Below, piece after piece: positions 1 through 54,107 of a stretch of DNA of 64,000 bases. The translations under genes and the position numbers were made by a program. Each line of letters opens with the position of its first letter. Position 1 is the first letter of the stretch. Location of the stretch: NCBI GenBank assembly GCA_013177855.1, contig JABLYA010000001.1, positions 1 to 64,000 of the forward strand, given 5' to 3'. The notes below the pieces were generated by a model, which was not told the origin of the DNA, searched no databases, and worked only from the letters and a program-made list of their open reading frames with translations. The DNA is from Ignavibacteria bacterium. Lineage in GTDB: Bacteria; Bacteroidota; Ignavibacteria; Ch128b.

Positions 1-131
1 CTAAAGAGATTAGCAAATTTTGAAACAGCCTCTTAAAGGTGTATTTTTTTCTCCTCATATTTTTAGAGTTTCAAATGTAATTTCTTCAACATTTTTGATC
101 TGAAAAACTTACTTTTTGGACAGGCTCGACC

Positions 132-490
132 TATAGAAATATTTTTTATTAAAAATCTGTGAGAATCTGTGTTCTATCTGTGTTTATCTGTGTTCTATTA
201 AGAAAATTAAAATAATGGGACACGGATGGACACAGATTTAGACTGATTTGCATAGATTGTTAAAGAATAATCTGTGAAGATCTGTGCTTCATCTGCGTTA
301 ATCTGTGTTCTATTAAAAATTTAAGATGGAACACGGATGAACACAGATTTAGAGGGATTTGCACAGATTTTTTAGAAATTTATCTGTGAAGATCTGTGTT
401 TCATCAGTGTTAATCTGTGTTCTATTAAGAAAATTAAAAATGGGACACGGATGAACACGGATTTAGACTGATTTGCACGGATGGAAGAAT
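132..490. repeat. ACACGGAT-type inverted repeat cluster (family A)
   Basis: Several imperfect copies alternate GGGACACGGATGAACACGGA with ATCTGTGTTTATCTGTGTTC, which are near reverse complements, so each unit can fold into a long hairpin. Family A recurs at 2621-2850, 2990-3115, 3415-3700, 53225-53430 and 53945-54107. No gene lies in 1-621; before position 132 I see nothing recognisable. Confidence 0.9.
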
Positions 491-621
491 GGCAAAATTT
501 TAAAAATTGGAGAATATAAATATAGGAGGGGATAGATAATAATCTATTCTCTTTAATTATATGGTTTATTTAATAGATACATAATTAATTAACTAAATAA
601 GAATAAAATAGGAGAACTTAT

Positions 622-1431
622 ATGATTCAAACCCGAATTAAAAGAAAGAATATCAATAAAGTAGAACCCCAATATGCTACAAAAGAAGAAATAGCCCTGG
701 AATTAGAAAAGACTTTTAATAAAGACTACATAAGAATTGTAGGAATAATTGACTCTTTAATCTATTTGCTTGTAGACGATCATTATATAAATAATCTTAT
801 GGCAACAGATATTATTTCTATTGCCGCCCACAAATTGTTAGATGATGAAATTCATGAATCTAAAAGAAGAAGGTGGGATAAAGCAAATTGCCCTGACTTT
901 ATAGCATTTTTTATAAATGTCTGCAAAAGTTTGGTCTGGAATGAGTACAAAAAATATTGCAGAATTAATGGTATTGATATAAAAAATAAAGATAAAGAAA
1001 AGATTAAAATGGAAAAAATTATTGATAAAGCCATGGAAGAAAATGAAAACAATCTGGATAATACTGAAAATGATGAGGACGAAGAGGTTTTAATTAATAA
1101 AAACAATAAAAGAAATATTCAATATGATTTTAATGATAGAAAAAATGCAGATTGGTCGTTGTATGACTCATTGGATAGATTGGAAATTTTATCAGAGGAA
1201 GAATATGAAAAAGAATACAAAAAACTGGAGAATAAACTAATAGATAGTTTTAAGGATGATCTAATTGCATTAGAAATCTTAAATATGATTTTGGATGGTG
1301 AATTAAGAGATCGAATTATTGCTCGTGAGCTTAATATTGACATTAAAATTGTTAGAAATACCAAGAAAAAAATTTCTCGAAAATGTATAAAATTAATTAA
1401 CAAAAATGGAGAAATGAAATATGAAAGATAA
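622..1431 (+). CDS. Sigma-70-family-like protein (divergent)
   Basis: This 269-residue protein is probably a divergent sigma-70-like transcription factor. Residues about 55-115 resemble sigma region 2 (helical, with RRRWDKANCPDFIAFFINV, reminiscent of the segment before the promoter-opening helix). Residues about 205-262 resemble region 4, with a helix-turn-helix-like stretch around GELRDRIIARELNID. A very acidic, low-complexity linker (about residues 125-160) separates them. The start has an AGGAGA ribosome site at 611-616. It overlaps the next gene by 11 bases and is the first gene of a three-gene operon with an ImmA/IrrE peptidase. I do not see canonical -10 or -35 binding signatures clearly, so a non-sigma DNA-binding role is possible. 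Confidence 0.6.
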   Translation: MIQTRIKRKNINKVEPQYATKEEIALELEKTFNKDYIRIVGIIDSLIYLLVDDHYINNLMATDIISIAAHKLLDDEIHESKRRRWDKANCPDFIAFFINVCKSLVWNEYKKYCRINGIDIKNKDKEKIKMEKIIDKAMEENENNLDNTENDEDEEVLINKNNKRNIQYDFNDRKNADWSLYDSLDRLEILSEEEYEKEYKKLENKLIDSFKDDLIALEILNMILDGELRDRIIARELNIDIKIVRNTKKKISRKCIKLINKNGEMKYER

Positions 1432-1816
1432 ACTTCTAAATTTTTTACTTTTCCTTCACAAAGAATTAGAGGGGGAAGAGGATAAGATAAAAGCAGATTT
1501 CCTAAAAAGAGGTATCAATCTTGAAGAAGAAAGACAAAAACTTCTTGATGAAATTAAAAAATACATAGCCCAATCGAAAAGGGATGACGCCTACAACTTT
1601 AAAACAGCATTTAATGAATTTATGAAATCCAGTTTCAATCTTATCAATGAAGATAAGTTAGATGAGATTGGTGAATTAGCCATTCAATTCAGAAGAAATA
1701 ATAAAAAGATTTATTACGATTTGACTACCGAAGATAAGAAGAAATTAAAATTTATCGCTGACTATAGAAGGAAACAAAGAAGTGAAGAAAACAAGGAAAA
1801 AATTGATAACCCCTAA
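1421..1816 (+). CDS. Small charged helical protein, unknown function
   Basis: The 131-residue product is rich in Lys and Glu and predicted largely helical, with a possible coiled coil around residues 20-55. I do not recognise the family. It has no signal peptide or membrane segment, so it should be cytoplasmic. It overlaps both neighbours (11 and 35 bases), so the three genes are probably translationally coupled. In ImmA-type modules the peptidase usually cleaves a partner regulator; this protein or the sigma-like protein upstream is the natural candidate for that partner, which is inference from position only. Confidence 0.7.
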   Translation: MKDKLLNFLLFLHKELEGEEDKIKADFLKRGINLEEERQKLLDEIKKYIAQSKRDDAYNFKTAFNEFMKSSFNLINEDKLDEIGELAIQFRRNNKKIYYDLTTEDKKKLKFIADYRRKQRSEENKEKIDNP

Positions 1817-2570
1817 AGAGATGGCTGAGAAAATTTATGAAGACTTTGATTTTAAATTTCCAAAGGAAGTAGACTTAGAAATTATTGCAAACTCAGAGTG
1901 TATTTTAATAGAAACAATCGAGCTGACTGAAGGTGATGGATTAATAATATTTAATCAAGATGGAGGGATAATAAAAGTAAATAGCAAGATTATCGACAGA
2001 GGTTGGATTAGATTTACGATAGCTCACGAATTGGGACATTATTTTCATGCTAAATATAATAATAGTTTGAGTTCACAATATGAAATTAAAACAGTACGTA
2101 ATAAAATGGATGACAGAGAAGGGGAATTATTTGCTAATGAATTTGCTGCGAATCTTCTGATGCCAGAAAATTTTTATTTAGACTTTATGAAATACAGAGA
2201 ACCTACAATCGAAAATTTTAAGCTAGTTTCAGAAGAATTTTGTGTTTCCCTACCTGCGGCTGCTGTACGTTATACACAATTAGGTTCAGAGCCAATAGCA
2301 GTTATATTTAGTGAAGATGGTAAGATAAAGTGGAAGTTTGAGAGTGAGGAATTTCCATTCAAGTATATTAGATCCAACAGTAATGTACCCTACAAATCAG
2401 CCGCTAATAGTTTACTAAATTCATCGAAAGAATTTGAAACAAATGAAATTAAATGTAATGCTTGGTATTATGCAGATTCGAAAGCGAAAAAATCCAATGT
2501 GATTTTGAAAGAAGAGAGTATGAGAATTGATGGTAAATCAGCAATTTTGACAATTTTAAGGTTAGTGTGA
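1782..2570 (+). CDS. ImmA/IrrE family metallo-endopeptidase
   Basis: This 262-residue protein carries the zinc peptidase motif HELGH at residues 82-86 (context FTIAHELGHYFH) and the downstream FANEFAANLLMP segment supplying the third ligand (about Glu120), typical of COG2856 proteins such as ImmA and IrrE/PprI. These enzymes cleave transcriptional repressors in response to DNA damage or mobile-element signals. The GTG at 1782 has GAAGGAAA 8 bases upstream; an alternative ATG at 1821 has poorer spacing. No HTH domain is fused at the N terminus, so DNA-binding specificity must come from another protein, plausibly the sigma-like product of the first gene. The C-terminal 90 residues are unassigned. 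Confidence 0.88.
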   Translation: MKKTRKKLITPKEMAEKIYEDFDFKFPKEVDLEIIANSECILIETIELTEGDGLIIFNQDGGIIKVNSKIIDRGWIRFTIAHELGHYFHAKYNNSLSSQYEIKTVRNKMDDREGELFANEFAANLLMPENFYLDFMKYREPTIENFKLVSEEFCVSLPAAAVRYTQLGSEPIAVIFSEDGKIKWKFESEEFPFKYIRSNSNVPYKSAANSLLNSSKEFETNEIKCNAWYYADSKAKKSNVILKEESMRIDGKSAILTILRLV

Positions 2571-2620
2571 TTATAATAAATTTTTAGGGTATGGAATTAA
2601 TTTTAGTAAAGAACAAAATT

Positions 2621-2850
2621 AGCTCGCAGATCTCGCAGATTTCGCTGATAAAATATCTGTGATAATCCGTGTCCTATTAAGAAAAAAATGGGACACGGAT
2701 AAACACGGATTGGACGGATTTACACAGATTGTTAAAAAATAATCTGTGGAGATCTGTGTTCTATCTGCATTAATCTGTGTTCTATTAAGAAAATAAAAAT
2801 GGGACACGGATGAACACGGATATGGACGTATTTACACAGATATTAATGAT
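2621..2850. repeat. Family A repeat cluster downstream of ImmA operon
   Basis: ACACGGAT/ATCTGTGTT inverted repeat units as at 132-490. It starts 50 bases after the peptidase stop codon, so the operon at 622-2570 is bracketed by copies of the same repeat. Confidence 0.88.
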
Positions 2851-2867
2851 AATCTGCGAGGAGTGAT

Positions 2868-2970
2868 GATTGGATTTATAGATCGCTCCTAATGGAGCTT
2901 TGGATTTTTTTTGTGTATGTGTTTTTCTACAAAGAGGACGCTTCTAAGGAAGCTAATAATTTATTACAAT
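2868..2970. repeat. Triloop-hairpin element (family D)
   Basis: Contains ATAGATCGCTCCTAATGGAGC followed by TTTTTCTACAAAGAGGACGC and GCTTCTAAGGAAGC. It is a degenerate copy of the element seen several times at 46567-48147: short stems such as GCTCC/GGAGC closed by three or four bases, attached to a CTACAAATAG-like tail. Confidence 0.65.
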
Positions 2971-2989
2971 CGATTTTTTTTATAAATGG

Positions 2990-3115
2990 CACGCAGATCT
3001 CGCAGATTTCGCTGATAAATAATCTGTGATAATTTGTGTTTTTATCTGTGTTCTATTCAAAAAATTTATAATGGGACACGGATGAACACGGATTTATACG
3101 GATAAAAAATTTGGT
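2990..3115. repeat. Family A repeat unit
   Basis: One inverted repeat unit (GGGACACGGATGAACACGGA with upstream ATCTGTG copies) that runs directly into the family C mosaic. Confidence 0.8.
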
Positions 3116-3420
3116 AGGTCATATCTAATCCTGAATCTATCGAAGTATGAAATCTTGCGGTATATCGATTGTCGAATAATCCCGAGTGAATGCAACGACA
3201 AATCGTATTTTGTTGAAAAACCTTAGCTGACATGCCGAACTTGTTTCGGCAACTAATGTTTTAACAGAGAAGACCCTGAAACAAGTTCAGGGTGACCCCT
3301 GAAACAAGTTCAGCCCTGAAACGAGTTCAGGGTGACATTGAAGAGGGATGTATCGAGACAACCGATTGAGTTTTTCAAAGGGAATATAACACTGAGTCTG
3401 TCGAAATGAAAAGTTATGTG
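3102..3420. repeat. Family C mosaic: GAACTTGTTTCGG / CTGAAACAAGTTCAGG repeats
   Basis: The first about 165 bases (from GATAAAAAATTTGGTAGGTC) are almost identical to a block beginning near 53418. They are followed by CATGCCGAACTTGTTTCGGC and repeated CCTGAAACAAGTTCAGG palindromes and end with AGAGGGATGTATCGAGACAA. An inverted relative is at 46795-47030. Confidence 0.88.
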
Positions 3421-3700
3421 TTCTATTAAAAAGCCTCAATGGGACACGGATGAACACGGATTTGGATGGATTTGCGCAGATTAAAAAAAATAATCTGTGA
3501 AGATCTGTGTTTAATCTGTGTTTATCTGTGTTCTATTAAAAATTCAAGATGGGACACGGATGAGCACGTATTTGGACGGATTTACACGGATTAAAAAACT
3601 TATCTGAGTGAATCTGTGCTTTTATTTGTGTTTATCTGTGTTCTATTCAAAAATACAAATTGGGACACGGATGAACACGGATTTACACAGATTTAAATAA
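3415..3700. repeat. Family A repeat cluster
   Basis: Two to three further ACACGGAT/ATCTGTGTT inverted units. From 3700 to 3950 no gene or repeat is apparent. Confidence 0.85.
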
Positions 3701-3950
3701 ATTGAAAGCTTAATGAAAGTAATTACTTACATCTTTCTACTTGCTTTTTTTTGTTAGAACCAATATCATTAATTTTGATTAATGATTAAATGAATGAATT
3801 AAAATATAAGTCTTTTCGATTAGGTGGTTAGGGTTAGTGAAGAGATACGAATTATAAATTATGAATTGTTTTGGTACTGGGTTGCTCTGGGAGTGACAGG
3901 GCGGAGCTGTAAATAAATATGAGATTACATAATTAATTAAATGATTTTGA

Positions 3951-4446: not shown

Positions 4447-5229
4447 ATGAAAGTAATAATATTATGTGGTGGGATGGGAACTCGATTAAGAGAAGAAACT
4501 GAATTTAAACCAAAACCAATGGTTGAAATAGGTGGGAAACCGATTTTATGGCATATAATGAAAATCTATGCCCATTATGGATTTAAAGAATTTATTTTAG
4601 CTCTTGGCTATAAAGGTGATTATATTAGAAACTATTTTCTAAATTATTATAAATATAATTCTGATTTTACGATTGATTTATCAAATAACGGAAATGTTAT
4701 ACTTCATAATAGTTCTATAAAAGATGATTGGAAGGTAACTTTAGTTGAAACTGGTGATGAAACTATGACAGGATATAGAGTGAAAATTGCCGGTAAGTAT
4801 ATAAACGAAGATAGGTTTATGCTCACATACGGAGATGCAGTTTCGGATATTGATATTAATAAATTAATTGAATTTCATGAAAAGACAGGAACAATAGGAA
4901 CTGTAACCGGTGTGTTTCCTGCTTCAAGGTTCGGCGATCTTGTTACTGATGGTAATTTTGTGAAACAATTTAAACAACAACTTAAAGAAACAGAAAATAA
5001 AGAACCTATAAATGGTGGATTTTTTATATTTAAAAGAGAATTTCTCGACTTAATTCCAGATGATCCTAATGTCGATCTAGAGAAAGAACCAATTAATAAA
5101 CTTGTTGAAATGAAACAGCTTTCTGTTTACAAGCATAAAGGTTTCTGGCAATGTATGGATACATACAGAGATTATTTATTACTAAATAAAATGTGGAAAG
5201 AAAATCCATTATGGAAAGTTTGGCAGTAA
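4447..5229 (+). CDS. rfbF: Glucose-1-phosphate cytidylyltransferase
   Basis: Makes CDP-glucose from CTP and glucose 1-phosphate. The N terminus ILCGGMGTRLREETEFKPKP is the nucleotide-binding signature of this family, followed by PMVEIGGKPILWHIM; the 260-residue length is standard. A GGAG motif lies about 10 bases before the ATG. Six bases separate it from the CDP-glucose dehydratase gene, its direct pathway successor. First intact gene of the long + strand polysaccharide cluster. Confidence 0.95.
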   Translation: MKVIILCGGMGTRLREETEFKPKPMVEIGGKPILWHIMKIYAHYGFKEFILALGYKGDYIRNYFLNYYKYNSDFTIDLSNNGNVILHNSSIKDDWKVTLVETGDETMTGYRVKIAGKYINEDRFMLTYGDAVSDIDINKLIEFHEKTGTIGTVTGVFPASRFGDLVTDGNFVKQFKQQLKETENKEPINGGFFIFKREFLDLIPDDPNVDLEKEPINKLVEMKQLSVYKHKGFWQCMDTYRDYLLLNKMWKENPLWKVWQ

Positions 5230-5235
5230 TAGATT

Positions 5236-6306
5236 ATGTTTAATTCTTATAAAGATAAAAAAGTTTTCATAACCGGTCATACAGGTTTTAAAGGTTCTTG
5301 GTTGACACTATGGTTATTAAAATTGGGAGCAATTGTGTCGGGATATGCTCTTGATCCCAAAACTAATAAAGATATTTTTGTATTATGTGAGTTAAATAAA
5401 AAAATTTATGATATTAGAGATGATATTAGAAATTATTTTTCGTTAAAAGAATATATTGATAAATTTGAGCCCGAAATCATTTTTCACTTAGCCGCACAAC
5501 CACTAGTTTTAGAGAGTTATGATGAGCCAAAATATACATTTGAGACAAATACATTAGGAACATTAAATATTTTAGAAGCATTTCGTCAATCAAGGACTGC
5601 TAAAATATTAGTTGTAATTACTTCAGATAAAGTATACGAGAATAATGAATGGATTTGGGGTTATAGAGAAAATGATAAAATCGGAGGTGATGATCCTTAT
5701 AGTGCTAGTAAATCTGCAGCCGAAATTATAGTAAATGCATATCAAAAATCGTTTTTTTATAAACAAAATAATAAATTGGTTGCAACTGTTCGGGCTGGAA
5801 ATGTGATTGGGGGTGGTGATTGGTCAAAGAATAGAATTGTCCCAGATTGTATTAGAGCATTAGAAAACAAAGAAACTATCATTATTCGTAATCCAATGGC
5901 AACAAGACCATGGCAACATGTTCTGGAACCAATTGGAGGATACCTTTTATTAGCTGAAAAGTTAATGCAGGGAGAAACATTTTTACAAGGAGCTTGGAAT
6001 TTTGGACCAAATTATAATAATAATAAAAATGTTGAATTACTTGTTAAAGAAATTATAAAACAATATGGGGAGGGTACATATAAAATTGAAAATGAAATTG
6101 ATAAGCCAAAAGAAGCAAAATATCTTGCACTTGATATTACAAAAGCCATTAAAATACTAAATTGGGAACCGATATTTAATTTTGAAGAAACGATCAAACT
6201 TACGATCGATTGGTATAAAAAATATAAAAGTGAAAATGTTTTTGATTTGTCATTACTACAAATTGAAGAATATGAAAAAAGATGGAAATTAAAGAACTTG
6301 AATTAA
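5236..6306 (+). CDS. rfbG: CDP-glucose 4,6-dehydratase
   Basis: Extended short-chain dehydrogenase that converts CDP-glucose to CDP-4-keto-6-deoxyglucose with bound NAD. Residues about 10-25 contain ITGHTGFKGSWLTLWLLKLG, the characteristic N-terminal glycine-rich motif of RfbG; YSASKSAAE gives the catalytic YxxxK; RAGNVIGGGDWSKNRIVPD is the conserved substrate region. The 356-residue length is typical. Its 3' end overlaps the epimerase gene by 25 bases. Together with rfbF it commits the pathway to CDP-6-deoxysugars. Confidence 0.95.
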   Translation: MFNSYKDKKVFITGHTGFKGSWLTLWLLKLGAIVSGYALDPKTNKDIFVLCELNKKIYDIRDDIRNYFSLKEYIDKFEPEIIFHLAAQPLVLESYDEPKYTFETNTLGTLNILEAFRQSRTAKILVVITSDKVYENNEWIWGYRENDKIGGDDPYSASKSAAEIIVNAYQKSFFYKQNNKLVATVRAGNVIGGGDWSKNRIVPDCIRALENKETIIIRNPMATRPWQHVLEPIGGYLLLAEKLMQGETFLQGAWNFGPNYNNNKNVELLVKEIIKQYGEGTYKIENEIDKPKEAKYLALDITKAIKILNWEPIFNFEETIKLTIDWYKKYKSENVFDLSLLQIEEYEKRWKLKNLN

Positions 6307-53944: not shown

Positions 53945-54107
53945 CCAAATAGAACACGGATGAACACGGATTTAGACGGATTTGCACAGATTTGAATTTT
54001 TTATCTGTGAAGATCTGTGTTCCAGCAGTGTTTATCTGTGTTCTATTAAAATCTGCTTAAATGGGACACGGATGAACACGGATTTAATCAGATTTACACA
54101 GATTGAA
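53945..54107. repeat. Family A repeat cluster
   Basis: Two inverted units after the family C block, ending 8 bases before the 3' end of the convergent phosphatase gene. Confidence 0.88.

Follow-up and report, generated by a model that had tools for sequence, protein, structure and literature searches.

The Three-Gene Locus and Its Products

The window is the whole stretch of 64,000 nucleotides analysed here; its position 1 is also where contig C1 begins. As described in the initial annotation, it carries three overlapping genes on the plus strand. Genes 1 and 2 overlap by 11 bp, and genes 2 and 3 by 35 bp. The features of the locus are:

120-485, no strand: dispersed repeat of the ACACGGATGAACACGGAT type, recognized by sequence; the contig start lies just upstream
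490-517, plus strand: candidate module promoter, with a -35 box TGGCAAAA (490-497), a 12-nt spacer, and a -10 word GAGAATAT (510-517)
622-1431, plus strand: gene 1, a putative divergent ECF-type sigma factor (269 aa)
682-969, plus strand: sigma region 2-like helical domain of gene 1 (residues ~21-116)
1048-1185, plus strand: acidic linker of gene 1 (residues 143-188, pLDDT below 50)
1195-1404, plus strand: sigma region 4-like helix-turn-helix of gene 1 (residues ~192-261)
1421-1816, plus strand: gene 2, a helical protein without a known family and a candidate anti-sigma factor (131 aa)
1782-2570, plus strand: gene 3, a CapP-like ImmA/IrrE (M78) metallopeptidase (262 aa, GTG start)
2025-2039, plus strand: HELGH zinc-binding motif of gene 3, invariant across the trio proteases (HExGH in relatives)
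2124-2126, plus strand: Glu115 of gene 3, invariant in the alignment of trio proteases

Gene 3 is present in a single copy in the whole genome. The ImmA/IrrE peptidase with an intact HELGH site that had been recognized from the letters alone matches Peptidase_M78 (E = 8.7e-13), and its finer identity is CapP-type: the match to the PADLOC capP profile is far stronger and covers the full length (E = 4.8e-52, residues 10-260). A profile of 11 trio proteases (A6) matches the CapP structure 7t5t at E = 2.4e-31 over residues 57-276, including the catalytic and C-terminal domains, and matches the IrrE structures more weakly. Both the HExxH catalytic domain and the C-terminal sensor domain of the CapP family were found over the full length, and the ANxFA motif is conserved among the trio proteases. 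Judging from the alignment, Glu115 is likely to be the third zinc ligand. The zinc-site cysteine of CapP has a regulatory role. This cysteine, which lies between HELGH and the third ligand, is present in seven of the 11 aligned trio proteases and is absent from the window protease, which has SLSSQYEIK there. Taken together, these sequence comparisons strongly support gene 3 as a full-length CapP-type ImmA/IrrE protease. A search of viral contigs with gene 3 gave nothing, and its plasmid matches were rejected as distant ImmA/IrrE proteins of less than 60% identity.

Gene 1 as a single sequence matched no family in the profile libraries (Pfam, NCBIfam, PADLOC, and PHROG). A profile of 23 gene 1 relatives matches the structures of SigW (3.5e-7), SigH, and SigE. 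In the AF2 model, the disordered acidic linker connects two helical domains of fair confidence; this linker is longer in the window member than in its relatives (alignment A4). The region 2-like helices (residues 21-34, 36-51, 61-73, and 93-116) have pLDDT values of mostly 71-93, and the region 4-like helices mostly 75-94. A Foldseek search with the model gave sigma factors at almost every one of the 38 top ranks; by E-value these matches are weak (best, 0.012), in part owing to uncertainty in how the domains are arranged. Among 16 gene 1 relatives, five match Pfam Sigma70_r2 (best, 2.4e-6) and five match Sigma70_r4_2 (best, 0.0013). The relative in locus L061 matches sigma70-ECF at 5e-8, and a more typical member, in the Sphingobacterium trio locus L070, lies above the NCBIfam sigma70-ECF cut-off. 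The structure and profile searches, with the relatives, showed the region composition of an ECF sigma factor, with regions 2 and 4 present and regions 1 and 3 absent, and a two-part promoter lies 5′ of the gene's own operon (490-517 here, mirrored pairs in the relatives). Thus, the sigma-like nature and the acidic linker claimed in the initial annotation, as well as the region 2/4 folds that it proposed to check by structure prediction, were supported by the model, the profile of relatives, and the NCBIfam match of a relative; on these predictions and profiles, the assignment of gene 1 as a divergent ECF-type sigma factor is well supported. Neither viral contigs nor plasmids gave a match to gene 1.

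Gene 2 is indeed an unrecognized helical protein of 131 residues. It has no family in Pfam, NCBIfam, PADLOC, or PHROG and no meaningful match among solved structures, and it is predicted to be all-helical at low confidence (pLDDT 58). The protein is weakly basic in the window and acidic in most relatives. In complete loci, its gene is placed between the sigma and protease genes, usually overlapping both, and nearly all complete loci have retained it. Its position, its size, and the absence of other domains point to a candidate anti-sigma factor. The ABC transporter loci L003 and L004 obtained in the first gene 2 search were false leads.

Spread of the Trio and Its Divergent Neighbours

Is this gene order found in other genomes? 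Profiles were constructed from the window together with two relatives and used to search for the trio. The ordered trio was found in more than 20 genomes, mostly of Bacteroidota; named records include a Melioribacter roseus MAG, Kriegella, Mucilaginibacter, Winogradskyella, and Flavobacteriaceae. Beyond Bacteroidota, a Spartobacteria MAG and a Burkholderiales MAG have the trio. In Sphingobacterium and Fodinibius, the version is more distant, and another small gene takes the middle position. Since the ordered trio recurs in distant genomes, the arrangement is not due to chance, and the neighbourhood comparison proposed in the initial annotation thus showed conservation well beyond this genome. 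A survey around the Burkholderiales MAG gave, for the most part, about one match of ~48 bits per genome without trio partners; these are presumably ordinary ECF sigma factors and are not counted as evidence of spread.

I read ~37 loci, a few of which retain only part of the trio. In 13 of them, spanning several families and phyla, an immune operon of the CBASS, Pycsar, Bil, or ubiquitin-like (E1/E2/JAB) type is divergent to the trio. CBASS nucleotidyltransferases (CD-NTases) are found in L019, L069, L070, and L071, and in L231 by similarity. The Pycsar group includes L072 (a cyclase, PycTM, and E2-like genes), L079 (a cyclase match), and L087 (assigned by reading). L051 has BilD, E2, and JAB genes, while L058, L059, L061, and L068 have E1/E2/JAB or multiubiquitin operons. 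No CRISPR genes were found among the trio neighbours read.

A protein of ~228 aa is encoded divergently to the sigma module in 15 loci (L020, L052, L055, L057, L062, L065, L224-L230, L232, and L234), most of which belong to the same class as the window. This protein starts with MAxLNKSVLGKVSGTIGDxTFRQRNGKN, has no match in Pfam, NCBIfam, or PHROG, and is a candidate for a new effector. The genome analysed here has a homologue (C1:298607), at which a copy of the promoter is absent.

Other neighbours were noticed. Three loci of flavobacterial type, L054 (7349-14411), L076, and L080, encode an unknown protein of ~416 aa divergently to the trio; in L054, a RecQ helicase with a phosphoribosyltransferase domain and a DprA protein are encoded 3′ of the trio. 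Small proteins of the DUF2188 type are encoded divergently beside the trio in L056, L060, and L061, in the last case ahead of the multiubiquitin and E1 genes. L053 (3997-10136) has a sigma gene of the family without gene 2 or the protease gene, running into an operon of a SNF2 helicase (ZorD-like) and a HATPase.

In the window, an adjacent defence operon is absent. Repeat DNA fills most of 120-485, the place in which one would look for a mirrored promoter arm and a divergent target; exact copies of the ACACGGATGAACACGGAT type lie at 445, 2804, 3076, 3444, 3665, 53954, and 54066. Nothing resembling the immune genes of the relatives turned up when the remaining contigs of this genome were searched at their ends for the absent divergent operon. 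As part of the overall explanation favoured below, the divergent partner was probably lost or lies beyond the contig end. A dispersed repeat, ACACGGATGAACACGGATTT, is found on both sides of the trio (window 120-480 and 2600-3750) and again at 53954-54090. Further 3′ of the trio, sugar-nucleotide genes (nucleotidyltransferase and dehydratase-like, by reading) at 4447-6306 look like the start of a polysaccharide cluster.

A Mirrored Promoter and a Distant Restriction Operon

The intergenic regions of the relatives often have a mirrored element, in which each arm consists of TGGCAAAA, a 12-13 bp spacer, and an 8-bp -10 word. In 13 of 24 regions, the element scored above all 200 dinucleotide shuffles (p = 0.005 each, which is the resolution limit of 200 shuffles). 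The -10 word (for example, GAGCATAT, CAGCTATA, CGACCATT, or GAGTAATA) is shared, exactly or almost exactly, by the two arms of a locus and differs between loci; the scan favours matching arms, so that the identity within a locus is partly selected, and the proper control is the zero background in 1.48 Mb. In that 1.48 Mb scan, the 13 sites at threshold were all at trio loci, with none elsewhere. Four held-out loci that did not enter the motif definition (L204, L206, L207, and L211) also score at least 5.5. A mirrored promoter of this type was undetected at L057, L059, L062, and L068-L071. The exact GAGCATA version occurs five times in ten genomes, four of them at trio loci; the extra copy comes from a Mucilaginibacter genome, and reading its locus on the forward strand revealed ordinary genes only and not the site itself.

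Within an arm, the spacer between the -35 and -10 elements is constant, whereas the two -35 boxes lie anywhere from 1 to 32 bp apart. Therefore, the element would represent two sigma promoters rather than one dimer operator. It is well supported by these sequence patterns that the mirrored element serves as a private promoter pair for the trio and the divergent operon.

The -35 word and the spacer of the window promoter agree with those of the mirrored promoters of the relatives. A second (left) arm was not found in the window, where repeat DNA and the contig end lie on that side. When the 3.66 Mb genome was searched with a preset pattern, two exact matches were obtained, the window site and C1:379262-379289 on the minus strand; 0.01 exact matches are expected under a first-order model. 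The distance from the second copy to the operon downstream of it is 146 nt; the four genes of this operon (L173) encode a PLD-SNF2 helicase, a type IIG restriction-methylase of 1524 aa, a protein of 224 aa, and a DUF3800 protein. This restriction operon, ~378 kb away, is the strongest candidate in this genome for a trans target of the proposed switch, as predicted from the shared promoter. The initial annotation had supposed that the locus may belong to a mobile or defence element; the defence link gained support from the immune neighbours of the relatives and from this second promoter copy.

A Putative Sigma-Based Switch and Its Alternatives

I consider it reasonably probable that the trio is a self-contained protease/anti-sigma/sigma transcription switch for phage-defence operons. 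Gene 1 would direct RNA polymerase to the private promoter, TGGCAAAA-N12/13-locus-specific -10 word. In many relatives, one arm of the mirrored pair would drive the trio and the other arm the defence operon. Gene 2, as an anti-sigma factor, may hold gene 1 silent until it is cleaved by the CapP-type gene 3 product, for which single-stranded DNA or damage may be the trigger, and the trio-facing promoter may provide self-amplification. In this genome, the switch would probably act in trans on the PLD-helicase/type IIG restriction operon.

It is somewhat unlikely that the trio serves mobile-element or phage-like genes at large as a sigma-based damage switch, with defence as just one use and not its role in this genome. 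In favour of this explanation, the divergent ~228-aa protein of the 15 loci has no defence annotation, and the window trio has no adjacent defence gene; however, the 13 immune-facing loci belong to several families and phyla, and the sole other exact promoter copy in the genome sits at a restriction operon. Another arrangement of the same parts, in which gene 1 itself is the CapP substrate, cut for example in its acidic linker, and gene 2 is a presenting helper or adaptor, seems improbable. Known relatives of the protease do cut the DNA-binding partner itself (CapH and DdrO), and the linker is unstructured. But destruction of an activator would turn the target off on damage, the opposite of what known immune controllers of such a type do; moreover, the long linker is found only in the window member, and gene 2 has been kept in nearly all complete loci.

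It is highly improbable that gene 1 is an ordinary repressor or dimeric DNA-binding protein resembling CapH, with the mirrored element as its palindromic operator. In favour of this, divergent genes flank the element, which is an inverted repeat, and the C-terminal helix-turn-helix of gene 1 also resembles LuxR/GerE domains. A dimer operator would fix the centre, however, whereas the half-to-half distance ranges over 1-32 bp with the 12-13 bp spacer kept in each half; the gene 1 family has a sigma region 2, and both the window site and the trans copy are half sites.

How does the proposed protease/anti-sigma/sigma switch compare with known systems? Damage-responsive immune controllers listed in 2026 are CapW/BrxR, CapH+CapP, and CapK+CapS, and the CapP protease is activated by single-stranded DNA (PMC13373217). 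The trio shares with CapH+CapP the protease family over its full length and a position beside varied immune operons. It differs in lacking a CapH-like HTH repressor: the neighbours of the protease gene encode the sigma-like gene 1 product and the helical protein, so that DNA recognition would fall to a sigma factor, accompanied by a separate small protein, and the window protease lacks the CapP cysteine. Since the trio has a sigma factor and not a repressor, its logic would be activation rather than derepression. PprI (IrrE), an M78 protease with a C-terminal GAF-like domain, is also activated by single-stranded DNA (PMC10904395); in the PprI+DdrO system of Deinococcus, the substrate is an HTH repressor, and DNA repair rather than immune genes is controlled. 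CapW/BrxR and CapK+CapS are likewise portable and control CBASS, Bil, Bub, and other operons from an upstream position (PMC13373217), but they have no protein family in common with the trio and are repressors relieved by single-stranded DNA binding or phosphorylation. The CalpL/CalpT/CalpS cascade of protease, anti-sigma, and sigma (PMC11417357) resembles the trio in having a protease, a small protein (a candidate anti-sigma in the trio), and an ECF sigma factor, and in its link to immunity. CalpL is encoded in a type III CRISPR locus and is a Lon protease carrying a SAVED domain, whereas the trio has a zinc protease of the M78/CapP kind without SAVED. By analogy, the trio is best read as combining the protease of CapH+CapP with the logic of CalpL/T/S.

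The open-access literature, to which the search was confined (preprints and subscription papers lay outside its scope), gave no description of a sigma/CapP module; judged by this literature and the profile libraries used, the trio belongs to a conserved control module that is apparently undescribed. The chances seem evenly balanced that the module represents a fourth type of portable immune controller and the first to be based on a dedicated sigma factor and CapP, in which pairs of sigma factor and -10 word proper to each locus insulate the operons, with the ~228-aa protein as a new effector. CapW, CapH+CapP, and CapK+CapS work through relief of repression; a sigma-based controller would instead activate, with self-amplification, and could reach distant operons that share its promoter. 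With a promoter this distinctive, sequence alone might suffice to find regulated defence genes, among them unknown ones like the ~228-aa family. For this genome, it is predicted that DNA damage would induce the L173 restriction operon through gene 1. The type IIG methylase gene of L173 (3103-7677) contains an in-frame match to an IS200-like transposase (Y1_Tnp, 6e-10), which adjoins a repetitive segment.
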